Positions 18,301 through 32,329 of a stretch of 44,145 nucleotides of DNA are shown here, in pieces. Origin of the DNA: Promethearchaeota archaeon (GTDB lineage: Archaea; Asgardarchaeota; Lokiarchaeia; Sigyniarchaeales; SOKP01); the NCBI GenBank assembly GCA_019058245.1, contig JAHPZJ010000001.1:1-44145 (forward strand), written 5' to 3'. The position numbers and the translations under genes were made by a program. The stretch's first letter is position 1; every line of letters begins with the position of its first letter. The notes beneath the pieces were generated by a model. That model was given only the letters and a program-made list of their open reading frames with translations, was not told the DNA's origin and searched no databases.

Positions 18301-19080
18301 ATGAAAAAAATTATCTCATTTTCTGGAAAGGGTGGTGTTGGGAAATCGACACTCCTTGTCCTAATGCTTAAATATCTTCTTGAAAAATTTAAAGATCTCA
18401 ATATACTAGTCATAGATGCCGACCCCGATGCAAATATCGGAGATATCATTGGCAAAGAAATCCATTTCAAAGAAACTATTGGGGGAAAAATGGCTGAATT
18501 TAAACAGAAAATCCAAAAAAGACTAATCCCTCTCGATGTATCAAAAGATCAAATCGTTGAATCAGAGGTATTTGATGCCCTTATTGAAATGGATCAGTTC
18601 GATATTCTAGAAATGGGACGAGGAGAAGGAGAAGGTTGCTATTGTAGTATCAATAATTATCTAAAGCGCATCATTGACATATTAGCGAAAAATTATGACG
18701 TCGTACTTATCGATGCCCCTGCTGGACTTGAGTTTTTTTCCCGAAAAACTGGTCAAACCGTTACTGACTTAGTTATTGTGTCCGATCCGAGTAAAATGGG
18801 CATTCATACCATGAAACGAATATTAGAAGTTACCAAAGAGGTAGAATTAAAATTCGAAAATATATGGATACTCGGAAACAGGTTTCCTGAAAATTCTCTA
18901 AGAGATATTTTAGAAAAAGAAGTTGCTAATGTTAAAGAAGAGTATGTAAAACTTCTAGGGTTTATCGCAAATAGTGATGAGATTAGTAAAATGAATATAA
19001 TTGGAGAAAATTTGTTACAACTCTCTACAGAGAGTTTAGCTTATCAAACAGCAAAACAGTTATTTGTAAAAATCATATAG
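18301..19080 (+). CDS. cooC: CooC/AcsF-like nickel-insertion ATPase
   Basis: 259 residues of the MinD/Mrp deviant P-loop family: GKGGVGKST (9-17), DADPDAN (39-45) and DAPAGLEF (switch II). GRGEGEGCYCSINNYL carries a CxC pair (C113, C115), the nickel-binding motif of CooC-type proteins that load nickel into carbon monoxide dehydrogenase. No CODH subunit is in the window, so the target must lie elsewhere. This fits Wood-Ljungdahl metabolism, in line with the methanopterin genes at 40.6-42.8 kb. ATG start, no Shine-Dalgarno. Confidence 0.88.
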   Translation: MKKIISFSGKGGVGKSTLLVLMLKYLLEKFKDLNILVIDADPDANIGDIIGKEIHFKETIGGKMAEFKQKIQKRLIPLDVSKDQIVESEVFDALIEMDQFDILEMGRGEGEGCYCSINNYLKRIIDILAKNYDVVLIDAPAGLEFFSRKTGQTVTDLVIVSDPSKMGIHTMKRILEVTKEVELKFENIWILGNRFPENSLRDILEKEVANVKEEYVKLLGFIANSDEISKMNIIGENLLQLSTESLAYQTAKQLFVKII

Positions 19081-19097
19081 TACCAGATGGATATATT

Positions 19098-19606
19098 TTA
19101 TATGATATTGTGTATATTATTTCTATTCAAACAACGGATTAAGGAACATTTGATGTCATCATAATTATATAGACTATCAGTTTTTTGGGACATTAAAATC
19201 GAATTGATATTTTTTTCATCGCATATCTGTTCAGAAATTCCTTCTATCCATGACTCAAGGATTTCTATATTATCTAAAATGTTATTAAGATATTCTTTTT
19301 TAGACATATTAGTATGTTTTACAAAAAGAATAGAGATCATCAAATCGTGACATCCTCCTCGAGCTTTGCTGTCTTCTATTGCAAAACAATGATTTAAAGA
19401 AAATAAATTATTATATTGTACATAACAATGGCTAAATGTCTCACCATCTGTATGGAATTCCATCAAATTTATAATCTCATTTTCTGGAATGCCAATTCCT
19501 TTTTCTGGGACGTCAATTCCAAATCTAGTCAACACAATTGGGCCTATTTTTACATCATAATAAAAAAAAAAACCATTTCATATGGTAACCCTATAATTTC
19601 AATCAC
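19098..19606 (-). CDS. Unrecognised protein interrupted by a frameshift at an 11-base homopolymer
   Basis: The intact 3' frame runs from GTG 19533-19535 to 19098 (145 residues), but it continues upstream without stops as YYDVKIGPIV to a run of T11 (minus strand; 19562-19572). Across the run, one base out of phase, the reading continues as VIEIIGLPYEMVFFF back to GTG 19604-19606 (or ATG 19574-19576). The joined product would be about 169 residues. The conserved-looking YYDVKIGPIVLTRFGID resembles the first strands of longin/Roadblock-type folds, a weak impression only. Cysteines occur in CHD and CYVQ. It lies 45 bp after the HTH-Roadblock gene and is probably co-transcribed. Pseudogene, slippage or sequencing error are all possible. 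Confidence 0.55.
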
Positions 19607-19650
19607 TTCAAATTAATTATTATCTAATAAGAAAATCATTCATATTTTTT

Positions 19651-20232
19651 TTAGATGTATTCATCAAACTCCCTTCGAATTTTCATATATCCAAAATCAG
19701 TAACAAATGTTCCTATAATTTCCCTAATTCTGTCAATAAAATAGAAACTATGATTAACAATATGTTTTAAATCAACAGAGTCATCAAATTCAATCGTCAA
19801 AACCGCTTTTTTTCCTGCCCATATACAAATTATTATACCTTTTGCTGAACTAATAATAGTTGATTGCAGATCTCCGTGTTCAACTTCAATTCCAACACGT
19901 TCACTTAGTGAGATAATTGCTTTTGTCATTGCCGCAACACGACTTTGATCCCACCCACCTCTAGGCCCTTCAAGTTTAAAAGCAATTGGAATAAATGCAT
20001 CATAACTTAATAAGGAAATATTTTGTACTCCCTCAATCAACTTCAGCATATTTAAACAAGAATCAATTTTTTCTTCAAATTGAGTTTTAGTTTTAGTATA
20101 GTCTTTTTTAGACCACCTTGCTAGCGTTGTTTGACTTACCTTAAACTCATTTTGAGTTTCCTCATATGTATGATTTTTTAAATATTCCAATATTTTTTGC
20201 TTTTCTTCTCTTGAATATCGTTTTCCTTGCAC
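19651..20232 (-). CDS. HTH domain fused to a Roadblock/LC7 domain
   Basis: 193 residues from GTG 20230-20232. Residues 5-43 are a homeodomain-like helix-turn-helix (SREEKQKILEYLKNHT, then VSQTTLARW as recognition helix), similar to transposase/IS-type HTHs. Residues about 56-178 fit a Roadblock/LC7 fold (LIEGVQNISLLSYDA, the long central helix with AAMTKAIISLSERVG, and paired strands IISSAKGIIICIWAG and KKAVLTIEF). Roadblock proteins regulate small Ras-like GTPases and are abundant in Asgard archaea. A fused DNA-binding domain suggests a GTPase-linked transcription regulator. A TATA box at 20266-20274 and a GTGATC element before the start support this start. Three GTTAGTAA repeats lie just upstream of the promoter. 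Confidence 0.75.
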   Translation of the reverse strand: MQGKRYSREEKQKILEYLKNHTYEETQNEFKVSQTTLARWSKKDYTKTKTQFEEKIDSCLNMLKLIEGVQNISLLSYDAFIPIAFKLEGPRGGWDQSRVAAMTKAIISLSERVGIEVEHGDLQSTIISSAKGIIICIWAGKKAVLTIEFDDSVDLKHIVNHSFYFIDRIREIIGTFVTDFGYMKIRREFDEYI

Positions 20233-20265
20233 TTTGGATCACTGATAATATTAAGGAAGTATTAG

Positions 20266-20274
20266 TATATAAAA
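20266..20274 (-). promoter_or_regulatory. TATA box of the HTH-Roadblock gene
   Basis: TTTTATATA on the minus strand, centred about 38 bp before the GTG at 20232, giving a leader of roughly 10 bases that contains GTGATC, a plausible ribosome-binding sequence. Confidence 0.45.
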
Positions 20275-20302
20275 TTATCTATTTGGAAATTGAAGATAAA
20301 GT

Positions 20303-20352
20303 GTTAGTAAAAGTTAGTAAACGATAAAAAAAATACAAAATAGTGTTAGTAA
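20303..20352. promoter_or_regulatory. GTTAGTAA direct repeats upstream of the HTH-Roadblock promoter (candidate operator)
   Basis: GTTAGTAA occurs at 20303-20310, 20313-20320 and 20345-20352. The first two are exactly 10 bp apart (one helical turn). A degenerate ATTAGTA at 20261-20267 overlaps the TATA box. The arrangement fits repeated sites for a DNA-binding protein, possibly the HTH-Roadblock product itself. Confidence 0.45.
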
Positions 20353-20493: not shown

Positions 20494-21156
20494 TTATAAA
20501 AATTCATTAATCCTTTTATTTCGAAATCGTTTTTCTACACCGTGTCTCATCCCTGGTAGTTCAAAACATTTATCAGGAATCATACGTTTAAAATAACTTT
20601 TGTTTTCTCTTTCAGAAATAAATTGAGATTTATAAAGAGTTTCGAAGATTTCTTTACCAGAAAATTGGATATCATCAAAATAAGGAATAACTGGTCGATT
20701 TTTACTAACCTTTTCTACAACACTTTTTAGAGGAGCATCAATCTCTTGAATTGTTCCTTTTTCATTAATAACACCAGTTTTACAGGAATATTCATTATAT
20801 AAACAAATTATACATTGGGGCCATCTTTCATGAAAATAATTTAAAACTGAATCCAATACTTTATGTTTGAGTAGTACAACTCCAAATAGTACTCCCCGAT
20901 TATTTATTTCAGTTCGAGTAAATTGTTTAGCTCGATATGCTTCAGTAGTTACCTCTCTCATCATTCTATTTATCTTTTTTGCGAATGGAGTTCCTGAATT
21001 GCGTAAAATGACTTCTGGTATATTTTTAACCTGGTCGATAAGATAAGGTGAAAATTTACAATGTCGAGGCAATTTATCTATTATTTCTCTATACGAATGA
21101 CCCTTTGCACGTCCAATAATTTCTAAAGGATCCTTTTTAATTGTTGAGTTTTTCAT
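20494..21156 (-). CDS. DUF4130 (TIGR03915-like) DNA-repair partner protein
   Basis: 220 residues. The C-terminal half (about 108-205) matches DUF4130: FHERWPQCIICLYNE, then a FETLYKSQFISERENKSYFKRMIPDKC region equivalent to the YYxxIFNPxRxNxKxMxxxMPxxYW signature. The overlap of its start with the end of the radical SAM gene (21153-21156, ATGA) supports this identification, because DUF4130 proteins are usual partners of that radical SAM family. The pair is thought to act in DNA modification or repair; the exact reaction is not established to my knowledge. Confidence 0.65.
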   Translation of the reverse strand: MKNSTIKKDPLEIIGRAKGHSYREIIDKLPRHCKFSPYLIDQVKNIPEVILRNSGTPFAKKINRMMREVTTEAYRAKQFTRTEINNRGVLFGVVLLKHKVLDSVLNYFHERWPQCIICLYNEYSCKTGVINEKGTIQEIDAPLKSVVEKVSKNRPVIPYFDDIQFSGKEIFETLYKSQFISERENKSYFKRMIPDKCFELPGMRHGVEKRFRNKRINEFL

Positions 21157-22493
21157 ATCATTTCCTCCTGTGGAGCACTATTGTTATCTTGGTAAATAAA
21201 ATTTTGTAGAGTAGTTTGATTTTTTCCATTTATTAATAGGTAAGGCTCAGCTCGTTTCAATACAACACCAACAGATTTTAGATCTTGGCGACGTCTAAAT
21301 TTAAATTTTTTAGATCGCAAATTGATTATCCTTTTAGCTGAAATTGGACCAATCCCAGGAACCCTTAGTAAATCGCTATAAGATGCTTGGTTTGGATCTA
21401 CTAATCCATGATCTTTAAAATATAGTCTTGCTAAGTGAATTTTTGGATCTCCAATAGGTAAATTATCATCTTCAATTAATATTTCTTTCAAATCCTTTAG
21501 TTTATAATGGTAAATTCGTAATAACCAATCACTTTGATATAGTCGATGCTCTCTTGCTAATGGTGCTGCTTGTTTACATGCAAGGGGTGTTCCTTCTATT
21601 GGAATGAAAGAAGAAAAATAAGCTCGCCTAAGATCAACTTCTTTATATCCCCAATCAATCCTTTTTAGTAAATCATAATCACTCTCATTTTCAGCAGCTC
21701 CAACTACAAACTGGGTTGTTTGTCCGCTATTTAGAATTGGTGCTCCATCCCATCTAAATTTTTTATACCCATTATTTCTTCTATCTTTAATCATTTTTTC
21801 TTGATATTTTAACTGAGCATCCTGTTTTAAATCTTTAATAACTTTAAGCGTTTCATCATTATGCTTGATACGAATTTCTTTTAACCAGCGTTGACGCATA
21901 ATTATATCGTTCTTAAAATCTTTTTGTTCCGCAATTTCAGCCAAATAATCTTTAGTAGATGCTTCTGTATTAATGGATATACGATCTGATAAACTTATTG
22001 CTTCCTTAAGAAGATATTGACTAACACCGGGTAAACACTTAAAATGTACATAACCCTGAAAATTATATTTAAATCGGAGAAGCTTAATTGCTTCTAACAT
22101 TTCTTCCGTGGTATCATCAGCGCTACCACAAACCCCAGATGAGATGAATACACCCTCAACTACATTCATCGAATAAAGTTTCATAAATGTACGAGCATAT
22201 TCTTCTGGTGTAAAACTCAATTTCTTCTTACAATTATGTGAGAAGCAATATTTACAATTATATATGCACTTATTAGTGTATAAAGTTTTGAAAAGACTCA
22301 TGCATCGACCATCTGGAGTATAACTATGGCAAATTCCAGCACTTGCTGTTGTACCTATCCAATTTTTGGAATCTCCAAAAAGTTTTGGATACTTATCTGT
22401 ACGACTGGAAGCAGTACTGGCACATATATCATACTTAGAATTTTCTCCCAATACTCGAATCTTTTCTAAGACAGAAGGCACTTTGATCAACAA
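21153..22493 (-). CDS. Radical SAM DNA modification/repair protein with C-terminal helix-hairpin-helix (TIGR03916-like)
   Basis: 446 residues. The N-terminal KYDICASTASSR (20-31) and the GICHSYTPDGRC segment (53-64) are characteristic of this family. The radical SAM cluster is C76-x3-C80-x2-C83. The last 70 residues hold a DNA-binding helix-hairpin-helix (LLRVPGIGPISAKRI). Start TTG 22491-22493; the second codon is also TTG. A TATA-like TTAAATATATA lies about 30 bp upstream, giving an almost leaderless mRNA. It is translationally coupled to the DUF4130 gene, forming the standard two-gene module. Confidence 0.88.
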   Translation of the reverse strand: MLIKVPSVLEKIRVLGENSKYDICASTASSRTDKYPKLFGDSKNWIGTTASAGICHSYTPDGRCMSLFKTLYTNKCIYNCKYCFSHNCKKKLSFTPEEYARTFMKLYSMNVVEGVFISSGVCGSADDTTEEMLEAIKLLRFKYNFQGYVHFKCLPGVSQYLLKEAISLSDRISINTEASTKDYLAEIAEQKDFKNDIIMRQRWLKEIRIKHNDETLKVIKDLKQDAQLKYQEKMIKDRRNNGYKKFRWDGAPILNSGQTTQFVVGAAENESDYDLLKRIDWGYKEVDLRRAYFSSFIPIEGTPLACKQAAPLAREHRLYQSDWLLRIYHYKLKDLKEILIEDDNLPIGDPKIHLARLYFKDHGLVDPNQASYSDLLRVPGIGPISAKRIINLRSKKFKFRRRQDLKSVGVVLKRAEPYLLINGKNQTTLQNFIYQDNNSAPQEEMI

Positions 22494-22775: not shown

Positions 22776-24290
22776 CTATTCTCTCGAATAAATTGAATAC
22801 CCTTTATCTAATTTTTCTTTTAATTCAATGGGTAGGCCAAATTTTTTAGTATAGAAGTTAAATATCAAACCATCAATCAATTTTTGTTCTTTTACATAAT
22901 CATAGTTTAGGTTTTTCTCTAGATTTTTAATGATAGATGATACTAAGGTTTCAATTTTTTCTTGAATCTCTTTTTCTGGTTTAATAAAGGGTAGGGCATT
23001 AATTCCTGTAATTTGAATACTACTGGTATTATTTATAATCCCCTTTGCCAAATAATTATATAAAGAACTGTTTAGCAAACCTAAAATATATTGAATTGAA
23101 ACGGATTTATTTTTAATTATAAATCCAATAGCTTTATTAGAATCCCAATAACATCCTTCTGGCATATAACGAACAGCTAATTTTGAACTTACTCCGCTAA
23201 TTATAATACCTTCTTTTTCAAATGGTACATTTTTTGGAATATCGTAATTTTTTTTTGATTCTGTTTTCCAATCCAATGCTTCCATTATTGGTCTATAATA
23301 TTGATCTGCACCACCTCTTTTTAAATAAGGTTTCCACTGATAAGAATCTAAATTATCACGAGAAATTATTCTGTATTTTTTATCCAGATTTTTAATTTTT
23401 TCATTTCGCTTCTTAAAGACTTCTGCAAGTCTTGTATCATCAATTGCAGCTATAAATTTTTTATTATTATGAGTATGCATCCCAATAAACCCCTGTATAT
23501 AATTATTCAATTTAGGGCTCTTTTCAAATAGATCAAGGATTTCTTCTTCAATATCAGTAAAAAATATGTTATAAGATAAAGAATTATATTTTTCTTGTCT
23601 TATTTCATTAATAATAGAGGGATTATAATAATTATCTTCGCTATTAATCCGAGGAATTATTCTCATAATGTTATTTTCTCTAAAATTTTTATTTTTTTGA
23701 CCAGAGTACTTTGATAAAATAATTATTACTGGACTAGTACTTACTTTTTGATTAGAAAACAAATTTTTAGGAGCTAAAAGAATTTCATTAATTTTGCAAT
23801 TATTAAGAATAAATTTCCTTAACTTTTTATGAGTGCTTAGAGTTAGAAATGAATCGCTTGTTATAAAACCTAATTTTCCTCCTTCTTTTAATCTCCAAAT
23901 ACTATTAATAATAAACATAGCATATGTTTCATGAGCGTTAATTCTCCCATAAATTTTTTTGAGTTTATTTTTGTGTTTGCGTACATAAGCACTAGCTTTA
24001 TTTAGATATGGCGGATTTCCGATAATAAAATCAAATTCATTATAAGAATCAGGATATAATGCTATAAGAGAATCCTGTTTTTTAGTTGTAATCCCTAATT
24101 TTTCAATGTCAACTAAAAAGTTAGAATTTATATCGTATGCGAATATTTGGGACTTATCTATTCCATTCTCTATTAATTTTTTTACAAAAATCCCCGGTCC
24201 GACGCAAGGATCTAAGATTTTCTGTCCATTCTTTATTTCCCCAATCCTTGATAATATATATTCAACCGTCTTAGGGGGAGTAACAACCAC
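22776..24290 (-). CDS. DNA adenine-N6 methyltransferase (type II/IIG-like)
   Basis: 504 residues. SAM-binding motif I is DPCVGPGIF (27-35), acidic motif II AYDIN with D53, and the catalytic NPPY is at 92-95, all typical of gamma-class N6-adenine methyltransferases. The C-terminal half (about 225-480) is the target-recognition type of region, with RISRDN-like and INNTSSIQITGINALPF segments also seen in Eco57I-like enzymes. No nuclease motif is seen. The first start codon is GTG 24290, yet homology-like sequence (NRKELGVV) continues upstream in frame to a stop about 45 bp away without a normal start, so the true start may be non-standard. It follows the M28 gene by 46 bp. No restriction enzyme is recognisable next to it. 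Confidence 0.82.
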   Translation of the reverse strand: MVVTPPKTVEYILSRIGEIKNGQKILDPCVGPGIFVKKLIENGIDKSQIFAYDINSNFLVDIEKLGITTKKQDSLIALYPDSYNEFDFIIGNPPYLNKASAYVRKHKNKLKKIYGRINAHETYAMFIINSIWRLKEGGKLGFITSDSFLTLSTHKKLRKFILNNCKINEILLAPKNLFSNQKVSTSPVIIILSKYSGQKNKNFRENNIMRIIPRINSEDNYYNPSIINEIRQEKYNSLSYNIFFTDIEEEILDLFEKSPKLNNYIQGFIGMHTHNNKKFIAAIDDTRLAEVFKKRNEKIKNLDKKYRIISRDNLDSYQWKPYLKRGGADQYYRPIMEALDWKTESKKNYDIPKNVPFEKEGIIISGVSSKLAVRYMPEGCYWDSNKAIGFIIKNKSVSIQYILGLLNSSLYNYLAKGIINNTSSIQITGINALPFIKPEKEIQEKIETLVSSIIKNLEKNLNYDYVKEQKLIDGLIFNFYTKKFGLPIELKEKLDKGYSIYSRE

Positions 24291-29148: not shown

Positions 29149-29204
29149 TTAAATTAAATTTATTGATTTATCTCAAAAAAATAAAAAGAAAAAGATCTTC
29201 TATT

Positions 29205-30599
29205 ATGGAAAACATAGAAAAAACCTTTGATGTGATCGTAATCGGAGCTGGTACAGGGGGTACTACAGCAGCAAGATTTACAGCTAAAAAAGGTTTAAAT
29301 GTATGTTTAATAGATAGAAAGAAAAAGGAAGATATAGGGAATAAAATATGTGGTGATGCAGTAGGGAATGAGATTTTTGACCTTCTAAAAATAGCCCATC
29401 CTAAAGATGAAGAACTTTCTTGTCATATAAAAGGAGCAAAATTATATTCCCCTGATCTTAAAAAATGTATAACCCTTCTCGATCCAAAACAAGCTGGTTA
29501 TATTGTAAATAGATTAGAATTTGGACAGAGATTATTGAATGAAGCTCTTGATGCTGGTGTAAAGCAATTTTTGGATAAAACTATGGTGTTAGATTTATTA
29601 TATTCCAATGGGACGGTAAATGGAGTCCAAGTTAAATTAGCAAATGGTGAAAAAGTTAACCTTAATGCTAAAATTGTCATTGATGCTAGTGGTTTTTATA
29701 CTCCTTTAAGAAAAAAAGTAAGAAGCACCTTAATTGAGAAAAATATTCAAAAAGAAGATAGTATTTTATGCTATCGTGAAATAGTAAAATTTTCACCATC
29801 AGATCTAGAAGTACAAGATCCTGAACATATTACAATTATTCTTGATCAAAAGAAAGCACCAGGGGGATATATCTGGTATTTTCCCAAAAATCAATCATCA
29901 GTCAACATAGGAATTGGTACTTTTATGGATTATAGAGGTAAAGTTAAAGATCTCTATAGATCTAATGTATATAATAAATTTATTAAAACATCTAAAGTTG
30001 AGATTCTCTCCTCTGGAGGCGGTGTAGTTCCAGTGAGAAGACCATTATGGTCATGTGCGGACAATGGATTTATGCTAATAGGAGATGCTGCTTGCCAAGT
30101 CAATCCACTTCATGGTGGTGGAATTGATCCATCCATGCGGGCGGGATATTATGCAGCTAATTCAGCACTTCAAGCTCTAGAAAATAATAATTATTCCATT
30201 AATCAATTATGGGATTATAATTATAAAGTAATGACAAGTTTTGGAGCAGAATTTGCTTCATTAGATTTATTAAGAATTGTTCTTCAATCACTTTCAAACG
30301 AAGCTCTCAATTTTGGATTAGGACGTGAGTTATTAAGTGGAGAAGAAATTTTAGAAATTTCTTCTAAAGGTGGATTAAATTTATCTTTAATAGATATGGC
30401 AGTTAAAGCTTTTAAGGGAATTTCGAATCCGAATTTACTATTGGATTTAAATTATCTTAGAATAAGAATGAATGAAATATCTAAACTTTATAAAAATTTC
30501 CCCAGAAATTTAAGTCAATTTTCCAATTGGAAAGAAAAAGCAATTGGAATTTATGAAAAAATTAAAACAATGTTTGTAGGTTCTAAAAAAATTAAATAA
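29205..30599 (+). CDS. Digeranylgeranylglycerophospholipid reductase (geranylgeranyl reductase family)
   Basis: 464 residues from ATG 29205; an in-frame TTG at 29163 would add 14 basic residues and is less likely. The FAD-binding GAGTGG is at 14-19, the active-site region NKICGDAVG at 46-54 and the second FAD motif LIGDAACQVNPLHGGGID further on. This flavoenzyme saturates the double bonds of archaeal isoprenoid lipid chains. It is followed after 1 bp by the GGGP synthase gene, in a tight lipid operon. Confidence 0.9.
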   Translation: MENIEKTFDVIVIGAGTGGTTAARFTAKKGLNVCLIDRKKKEDIGNKICGDAVGNEIFDLLKIAHPKDEELSCHIKGAKLYSPDLKKCITLLDPKQAGYIVNRLEFGQRLLNEALDAGVKQFLDKTMVLDLLYSNGTVNGVQVKLANGEKVNLNAKIVIDASGFYTPLRKKVRSTLIEKNIQKEDSILCYREIVKFSPSDLEVQDPEHITIILDQKKAPGGYIWYFPKNQSSVNIGIGTFMDYRGKVKDLYRSNVYNKFIKTSKVEILSSGGGVVPVRRPLWSCADNGFMLIGDAACQVNPLHGGGIDPSMRAGYYAANSALQALENNNYSINQLWDYNYKVMTSFGAEFASLDLLRIVLQSLSNEALNFGLGRELLSGEEILEISSKGGLNLSLIDMAVKAFKGISNPNLLLDLNYLRIRMNEISKLYKNFPRNLSQFSNWKEKAIGIYEKIKTMFVGSKKIK

Positions 30600-30600
30600 T

Positions 30601-31437
30601 TTGAAAAATGTGAAAGGTATGGTTGATATATTAATTGATGGGTGTATTGAAAGAAATACTTATGAATATTTAATAAAAAAAATTAATAGTGACGGATCTT
30701 TGCATTTTTCCTTGATAGATCCAGATCCATTAAGGCAAGGACCAAGTAAAGCAGCAAAAATGGCTAAATATGCTGAAGACGCTGGAACCGATGCTATTTT
30801 AATTGGAGGAAGTACTGTTTTTGATCAAAGTTTTGTTGATAAAACAATTCAAGCAATAAAAAGCAAAACTGAAGTACCTATTATTATTTTTCCTGGAGGT
30901 ATTAGTAATGTTTCTCAATATGCAGATGCTATTTTCTTTATGTCTTTATTGAACTCATCAGATCCTTATTCTATAGTGGGACAACAAGCGCTTGCTTCTT
31001 ATACAATTAGATCATTCAACCTAGAATATATTTCAATGGCATATTTAATAATAGAACCTGGAGGAAGTGCAGGATGGATTGGAAACGCGAAATTATTACC
31101 AAGAAATAAACCCAAATTAACAGCTGCTTATGCTTTAGCAGCAGAAATGTTTGGTTTTAAAATTGTTTATTTAGAGGCAGGTTCTGGAAGCGAAAAAATT
31201 CCATTAGATCATATAAAAACTTGTAAATCCATTTTAAATATTCCAATAATTACTGGGGGAGGCGTTGATAATAAAGAAGATGCTAAAAATTTTGTGGAAG
31301 CGGGAGCAGATATTATTGTAATGGGAACTTTCATTGAAAATCACATCCTTAAAGATAATGGTAACTCTTTAAAAGAAATAATTGATGAAATTAAAAATAC
31401 TGGTAAAACTCAGACTAAGAAATTTAATTTTAAATGA
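30601..31437 (+). CDS. Geranylgeranylglyceryl phosphate synthase
   Basis: 278 residues from TTG 30601. The enzyme forms the first ether bond of archaeal lipids by joining geranylgeranyl diphosphate to sn-glycerol 1-phosphate. Visible TIM-barrel motifs: SLIDPDP (N-terminal strand), ILIGGST, IIFPGGISNVS, YLIIEPGGSAGWIG, YLEAGSGS and PIITGGGVDNKEDA, where GxG phosphate-binding loops lie. The full set of loops argues for an active enzyme. Tightly placed after the reductase and 13 bp before the UbiA gene. Confidence 0.94.
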   Translation: MKNVKGMVDILIDGCIERNTYEYLIKKINSDGSLHFSLIDPDPLRQGPSKAAKMAKYAEDAGTDAILIGGSTVFDQSFVDKTIQAIKSKTEVPIIIFPGGISNVSQYADAIFFMSLLNSSDPYSIVGQQALASYTIRSFNLEYISMAYLIIEPGGSAGWIGNAKLLPRNKPKLTAAYALAAEMFGFKIVYLEAGSGSEKIPLDHIKTCKSILNIPIITGGGVDNKEDAKNFVEAGADIIVMGTFIENHILKDNGNSLKEIIDEIKNTGKTQTKKFNFK

Positions 31438-31450
31438 GATGTGAATTTTA

Positions 31451-32329
31451 ATGAATTTTAAAGATGCTATCGGGATTCTTCGACCAATTAATGATATAAT
31501 GGGAAGTTTAACGGTCATAATTGGAGTTTTGGTGACTAGACAAGGAATTGGATATGAAAAAATTATTATTAACATTATACTAGGTGTATTAACCTATTTT
31601 TTTATCGCTGGTTCTGGAATGATCATAAATGATATATATGATGTTGAGATTGATAAAATAAATAGACCAGAACGACCAATTCCTAGTGGTGCAATAACAT
31701 TACTTCAAGCAAAATACTTATTTGTAGGTGTTTTTATTTTAGGGATAATTCTTTCGATTATTCACAGTATTATTTTTAATTTACAATTTATAAATGTAAT
31801 TGTAGTAATATTTTTCGGTTTTATGGGATGGGTATATGCAAAATGGGGAAAAAAAAGTGGTTTTTTTGGTAATATTATTGTTAGTATTTCTTTTTCTATT
31901 GGTTTTATATATGGAGCAATTTTGAATAGCTCAATAATTCCTATATATATATATTTCTTCTTTCTAAATAGTATTTTTGGCTTACTATCTCGAGAAATTA
32001 TAAAGGGTTGCGAAGATATAGAGGGGGATAAAGAATTGGGAGTTAATACTTTAGCTATTAAATTAGGCTTAGAAAAAACTCCTTACATCTCTATGATTTG
32101 TGCATTTCTATCTATACTATTTTTTATACTTGCGGCATTCACAGATTTAATTAATCGCTTAGCTTTTTCAATTTCAATGATTTTTGGCATAGTTGTAGTA
32201 TTATATGCAGCATTATTAATGCCTAAAAAGAATTTAGAAAAAAAGGATTTCTCAAAAATTAGTTTATTATTAAAAATAGCCATGCTTTTAGGATTAATTG
32301 CAATTCTTTTAGCTAGTATTAGTTTTTAA
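31451..32329 (+). CDS. UbiA-family prenyltransferase, probable digeranylgeranylglyceryl phosphate synthase
   Basis: 292 residues with about eight membrane helices. First aspartate motif NDIYDVEID (60-68) followed by NRPERPIPSG; second motif REIIKGCEDIEGDKELGVNTL. These match the archaeal enzyme that adds the second geranylgeranyl chain to GGGP, the step after its upstream neighbour. Other UbiA enzymes look similar, so the substrate rests on operon context. Its end overlaps the opposite-strand methyltransferase end by 4 bp. Confidence 0.88.
   Translation: MNFKDAIGILRPINDIMGSLTVIIGVLVTRQGIGYEKIIINIILGVLTYFFIAGSGMIINDIYDVEIDKINRPERPIPSGAITLLQAKYLFVGVFILGIILSIIHSIIFNLQFINVIVVIFFGFMGWVYAKWGKKSGFFGNIIVSISFSIGFIYGAILNSSIIPIYIYFFFLNSIFGLLSREIIKGCEDIEGDKELGVNTLAIKLGLEKTPYISMICAFLSILFFILAAFTDLINRLAFSISMIFGIVVVLYAALLMPKKNLEKKDFSKISLLLKIAMLLGLIAILLASISF

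Follow-up and report, generated by a model that had tools for sequence, protein, structure and literature searches.

A predicted self-binding helix-turn-helix–Roadblock regulatory module in a lokiarchaeial genome

The window analysed here, a stretch of 44,145 nucleotides from contig JAHPZJ010000001.1 of a Promethearchaeota archaeon (Lokiarchaeia), encodes a protein that joins a predicted DNA-binding helix-turn-helix (HTH) to a Roadblock domain, a type that controls small GTPases elsewhere, with an array of short repeats in front of its gene. The gene and the array form a predicted self-binding regulatory module, which is well supported by genomics. Repression of its own promoter is moderately supported, judging from the position of the sites, and input from a GTPase or a partner protein is suggested by the Roadblock domain. 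Overall, the protein is rather probably an autorepressor, with the Roadblock dimer as its input surface and the repeated nonamers as its operator. The earlier note on this DNA had proposed a module of regulator, repeats and co-transcribed partner that links GTPase signalling to transcription. Its predicted self-binding core stands, but the partner is an accessory to that core, and the only element that points to small GTPases is the Roadblock domain itself.

The regulator and its upstream array

The HTH-Roadblock regulator gene occupies positions 19651..20232 (-) and encodes 193 amino acids (aa) from a GTG start. The fusion of the two domains, claimed beforehand, was confirmed for this open reading frame (ORF): Robl_LC7 (PF03259) scored 29.7 bits, above the curated Pfam cut-off of 23, and an N-terminal HTH_28 match was found below its own cut-off. 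Each domain was matched in 13 of 15 family members at E up to 0.1, with a best E of 0.0002 for HTH_28, and the HTH residues V32, S33, Q34 and T36-W40 were invariant in these 15 members, which have 30–81% identity to the window protein. Structure prediction, set beforehand as a check, returned a Roadblock fold, and the model shows three helices for the HTH part. An Lrp/AsnC effector domain gave no Pfam match at E up to 1 in the window protein. The stretch GTGATC, read from the sequence 5' of the start codon at 20237..20242 (-), presumably has a Shine-Dalgarno-like role and is present in the orthologous loci L007 and L008 too.

The family profile was run on 227 Asgard genomes and the matches were sorted by E-value. 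Among the matches listed, the full-length protein occurred in nine genomes, three from the window's genus and six others from the same order, with a break between the ninth match (1.2e-64) and the next, which covered the Roadblock part only (4.4e-24). Because many of these genomes are incomplete, a missing gene need not be truly absent. In named genomes, a scan found 11 loci: eight in Lokiarchaeota/Prometheoarchaeum records and three bacterial, the latter matching the N-terminal part only. A search for other proteins sharing the HTH, with residues 1-46 as the query, returned the same family only (7 of 7), and none of 84 pattern-matching stretches of viral contigs encoded a relative of the protein.

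Three repeats of the octamer GTTAGTAA, two of them with 10-bp spacing, had been described upstream of a TATA box, and they are indeed present at 20303-20310, 20313-20320 and 20345-20352. The window holds six matches to this octamer against a shuffled mean of 1.6 (six were reached in 1 of 100 shuffles), and the close pair GTTAGTAA-N(1-6)-GTTAGTAA occurs a single time in the 3.09-Mb genome. Comparison of the upstream regions of orthologues gave AGTRTTAGT as the conserved unit, which is ACTAAYACT in the gene's sense. The window contains four exact nonamers of this kind, at 20258, 20300 and 20342 before the gene, spaced 42 bp, and at 32315 elsewhere; a degenerate copy at 20310 makes a fourth member of the array. 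All array copies are candidate operator sites on the minus strand: ACTAATACT at 20258..20266, ACTAACACT at both 20300..20308 and 20342..20350, and the degenerate ACTAACTTT at 20310..20318, read from the sequence 10 bp from the 20300 copy and weak by matrix, with 42 window positions scoring as high. The predicted TATA box TTTATATA lies at 20266..20273 (-) and matches TTTAWATA in 8 of 8 positions. The placement of the repeats upstream of this box holds for the copies listed earlier, but not for the whole array, because the previously unlisted exact copy at 20258-20266 overlaps the downstream edge of TTTATATA by one base.

Nine orthologue loci (L001 and L007-L014) were compared. The repeats, whose persistence upstream of orthologues had been set as a check, are kept as AGTRTTAGT but not as the exact octamer GTTAGTAA, which only three of the 8 other loci share (L007, L008 and L010). 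Within 250 bp upstream, at least one exact nonamer was found in 9 of 9 loci (1–4 each), against shuffled means of 0.003–0.033. As the consensus was derived from the very regions counted, a held-out matrix test was added, with 11 training sites from L009, L010 and L012 and none from L011, the fourth other lineage. Across both strands of the 44-kb window, the exact copies at 20342, 20300 and 20258 took ranks 1, 2 and 3, respectively, and the other lineages' best sites were equalled or exceeded by two to three window positions, the window's own copies included.

In all nine loci a motif copy overlaps the edge of the best TTTAWATA match by 1–2 bases, the match being 8 of 8 in seven loci and 7 in L009. 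In L001, L007, L008, L009 and, inverted, L011 this TATA-edge copy matches the nonamer exactly and sits on the downstream side. The distances between copies are 42, 42 and 84 bp in the window; 10, 33, 42, 43, 52 and 85 bp in L007; 11, 33, 42, 44, 53 and 86 bp in L008; and 9, 43–44, 52–53 and 61–62 bp in L010 and L012-L014. Many of them lie near whole helical turns, which is a description and not a comparison to chance.

The confinement of the paired motif was followed in 20 genomes, nine with the gene and 11 without it, as ACTAAYACT pairs with 1–62 bp between. Ten of the 16 matches stood before the gene, in G000, G006, G014, G037, G046 and G050, and the other six fell in repeat-like sequence of G001 and G048, both without the gene; the reversed-pattern control gave 15 matches. 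No strict pair was present in G038, G041 and G049, although these genomes have the gene. A TATA + site pattern gave six matches, four at the HTH-Roadblock gene and two in genomes that lack this gene (10 for the reversed pattern); tandem half-sites gave 30, of which 10 were before the gene (32 for the reversed pattern). By these three patterns no convincing second target was found, single or weak sites elsewhere still being possible. The nearest to one is a partial array copy in G049 (L013, 1852-1884), perhaps a local duplication or insertion, which precedes an ORF of 258 aa that neighbours the gene. The paired motif therefore behaves as a nearly private operator of the HTH-Roadblock gene, which fits what autoregulation predicts.

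A second kind of HTH-Roadblock gene

Some Roadblock matches of the family profile sit in frames of about 190 aa, and in L015 (1492-2058, -) and L024 (1519-2073, -) an ArsR/TrmB-type winged HTH stands before the Roadblock domain. In L024 all three matches exceed their cut-offs (HTH_5 29.3 bits against 22, TrmB 29.1 against 25.6, Robl_LC7 55.6 against 23); in L015 Robl_LC7 is above its cut-off at 50.5 bits and HTH_5, at 20.8, just below. A profile built from these two recovered 12 genes (L140-L151) in 79 genomes of the order at E up to 1e-30. None of the nine genomes holding the HTH_28-type gene contained the winged kind. Mutual exclusion of the two kinds (9 + 12 of 79, none shared) was nevertheless dropped as an idea, as only about 1.4 shared genomes are expected by chance.

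These winged-HTH-Roadblock proteins of Lokiarchaeales resemble the regulator in combining an HTH with a Roadblock domain in about 190 aa behind a spaced upstream array, and differ from it in the type of HTH and in the motif, which is ATAAC rather than ACTAAYACT. Within 170 bp upstream, 3–5 ATAAC repeats were found in 12 of 12 loci, against shuffled means of 0.33–0.73, and ACTAAYACT was absent from all 12 stretches. The gaps are 11, 29–31 and 41 bp in eight loci (two with one extra copy), 32 and 11 bp in one, and 19, 22 and 19 bp in three. In 25 genomes the three-site ATAAC pattern matched nine times, eight of them before winged-HTH-Roadblock genes and once elsewhere in G030, with no match in the 13 genomes without such a gene and none for the reversed pattern. 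Since these eight loci served to fit the pattern, their recovery is by construction, and the informative part is the absence elsewhere. The combination of HTH and Roadblock seems more than an accident, since two unrelated HTH types each come with their own spaced array; that both are joined to Roadblock in the same order suggests that selection favoured the combination on more than one occasion.

The longin-like partner and the neighbourhood

A longin-like partner gene follows at 19098..19606 (-). It is open in the piece 19098-19535, and three-frame reading shows the frame to be lost within a run of 11 T at 19562-19572, upstream of which the start equivalent to that of relatives lies at 19606. 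The 45-bp distance reported between regulator and partner is accurate when counted from this start (44 bp), but the listed ORF is 5'-truncated and its own GTG leaves a gap of 115 bp. Eleven contigs carry a record of the truncated protein, whereas the length is 164–172 aa in 11 of the 12 relatives found. Folliculin was the commonest Pfam match of the relatives (8 of 11 at E up to 1), and for the window partner ORF and P0016 it reached 16.6 bits, below the cut-off of 23.3. A sequence search of solved structures with the partner gave one match, at E 1.3, and its structure model is of poor quality. Co-occurrence with the partner family was found in three close relatives, where the partner follows the HTH-Roadblock gene, but not in the distant orthologues L009-L013, among whose listed ORFs it is not beside the gene. 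It is therefore an accessory and not a core part.

On the other side of the partner, and convergent with it, a P-loop ATPase gene at 18301-19080 (+) has an AAA_31/CbiA match and a GEGCYCS motif, which we take to be of the CooC type; a relative lies next door in L007. The flanking ORFs scanned also include DUF4130, radical SAM, GNAT and others. The DUF4130 and radical-SAM genes, upstream of the regulator at 20494-22493 (-) and likewise in L007, are a putative DNA-repair pair, the radical-SAM gene matching TIGR03916 just below the cut-off. Farther along the window there is an adenine-methyltransferase gene at 22776-24290 (-), which resembles a portion of PglX with a score far under the NCBIfam cut-off, and consecutive geranylgeranyl-reductase-like, PcrB-family and UbiA prenyltransferase genes at 29163-32329 (+), likely an ether-lipid operon.

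Mechanism, competing explanations and known systems

As an autorepressor, the protein would act as follows. A Roadblock homodimer, expected by analogy with solved relatives, would carry a pair of HTHs on variable-length tethers, with one ACTAAYACT nonamer bound by each HTH. Once bound, the units would lie on the same face of the helix, because the direct repeats are about 10, 33 or 42 bp apart in the window's genus. Occupation of the TATA-edge copy would block TBP/TFB or RNA polymerase. A small GTPase on the Roadblock dimer would alter operator occupancy, as might, in close relatives, the longin-like protein, which is probably co-transcribed; the changed occupancy would set the level of both the regulator and the longin-like protein.

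Several observations weigh against this autorepressor. On the protein side, HTH_28 reaches 19.3 bits against a cut-off of 25, and the structure-comparison rows leave the HTH uncovered. On the DNA side, a two-fold dimer usually meets inverted and not direct repeats, and the lone exact copy in L011 is inverted. Four loci, L010 and L012-L014, carry a degenerate copy, GCTAAYATT, at the upstream edge of the TATA box, with a further copy, ACTAACAGT, starting 8 bp downstream of the box. The TATA boxes are all predicted, that of L011 with a match of only 6 of 8. Distances off whole turns occur in L009 (76 bp), in L010 and L012-L014 (61–62 bp) and for the outermost copies of L012 and L014, and distal copies could serve activation. 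As to the input, the partner is missing beside the distant orthologues, and Pfam scans of 28 of 43 window ORFs (110 aa or more) found no Ras-like GTPase of the kind expected next to an MglB-type GTPase regulator.

Some of these points would suit a concentration-dependent dual autoregulator without GTPase input, in which the distal copies activate at low and the TATA-edge copy represses at high concentration, the Roadblock domain serving dimerisation only. Copies are indeed present at the TATA box as well as far upstream, no GTPase gene appeared among the window ORFs scanned, and Ss-LrpB acts so on its own gene according to the passages of PMC2995911 that treat it. However, a plain dimerisation domain need not be a Roadblock, and a second, unrelated HTH on the same domain type suggests a use in signalling; this explanation is a doubtful one. 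The autorepressor can also be extended, only tentatively, to a class of Lokiarchaeal G-protein-gated transcription factors. In these, a Ras/Rag-like GTPase, in some species with a Folliculin-like longin partner, would dock on the DNA-bound Roadblock dimer. The Roadblock assembly, rather than the HTH, would determine how the operators are arranged, given that arrays with gaps of about 1, 3 and 4 helical turns accompany both of the unrelated HTH types.

It is improbable that the motif belongs to another regulator controlling this gene while the HTH-Roadblock protein binds elsewhere. Self-binding is a prediction and the HTH match is sub-threshold, but the paired motif is near-confined to the gene, the searches of these genomes gave no second target that convinces, and both HTH-Roadblock kinds carry their own, different motif. 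A DNA-partition cassette (repeats as centromere, HTH protein as binder, the ATPase at 18301-19080 as motor) was rejected as very unlikely: direct repeats, HTH protein and an ATPase do lie close together, with an ATPase relative beside L007 too, but the ATPase is convergent, has the presumed CooC-type motif and is not among the ORFs read beside L009-L013, and every one of the nine loci has a repeat touching its predicted TATA box. A conservon was also rejected, as its gene set (kinase-like protein, Roadblock, DUF742 and GTPase) was not found among the flanking ORFs scanned.

For Asgard archaea, the abstract of PMC10933270 describes many small GTPases and Roadblock and longin proteins resembling parts of eukaryotic Ragulator and TRAPP. 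Homodimers are seen in crystals of two Asgard Roadblock proteins and of a third, shorter one, and the sections on RB, RBLC7 and Longin describe no HTH for Thor-RB, MKD1-RB or 9jue Roadblock3. If the HTH-Roadblock protein is an autorepressor, it would provide a direct route from GTPase signalling to a promoter; because its Roadblock domain comes with a DNA array that is specific and nearly private to the gene, one possible role of such proteins is now testable in vitro. Searches of the open-access literature for an archaeal HTH-Roadblock regulator brought up no paper on one. The nearest mentions there are of an archaeal receiver-output domain related to Roadblock (PMC5847659) and of a bacterial gene-neighbourhood protein with receiver-like and winged-HTH-like parts near an MglA group (PMC4316618); in the passage of PMC7289017 concerned, 'roadblock' means an obstacle to polymerase only.

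In Streptomyces, conservons (CvnA-D) likewise join a Roadblock protein, an HTH-superfamily protein and a Ras-like GTPase, encoded together and linked to gene control in the part of PMC8510531 dealing with them. There, HTH and Roadblock are separate proteins, whereas here they form one chain, and no histidine-kinase/GTPase cluster was seen around the HTH-Roadblock gene. Another close likeness is to LrpA of P. furiosus and Ss-LrpB of S. solfataricus, which, in the passages of PMC2995911 on them, share an HTH acting on its own promoter, TATA-bordering binding, sites on one face and cooperative dimers, features that are predicted here. LrpA binds its own control region bordering the TATA box downstream and excludes polymerase, Lrp dimers align along one helix face, and Ss-LrpB switches sign with concentration (same passages). 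As an analogy, this site geometry recurs in the TATA-bordering copy at 9 of 9 predicted boxes and in the 42-bp steps of exact nonamers in the window, but the effector domain is a Roadblock, with no AsnC/Lrp match. Autoregulation through spaced sites is already known; pairing a Roadblock effector domain with a conserved operator of its own is a new variation on it.
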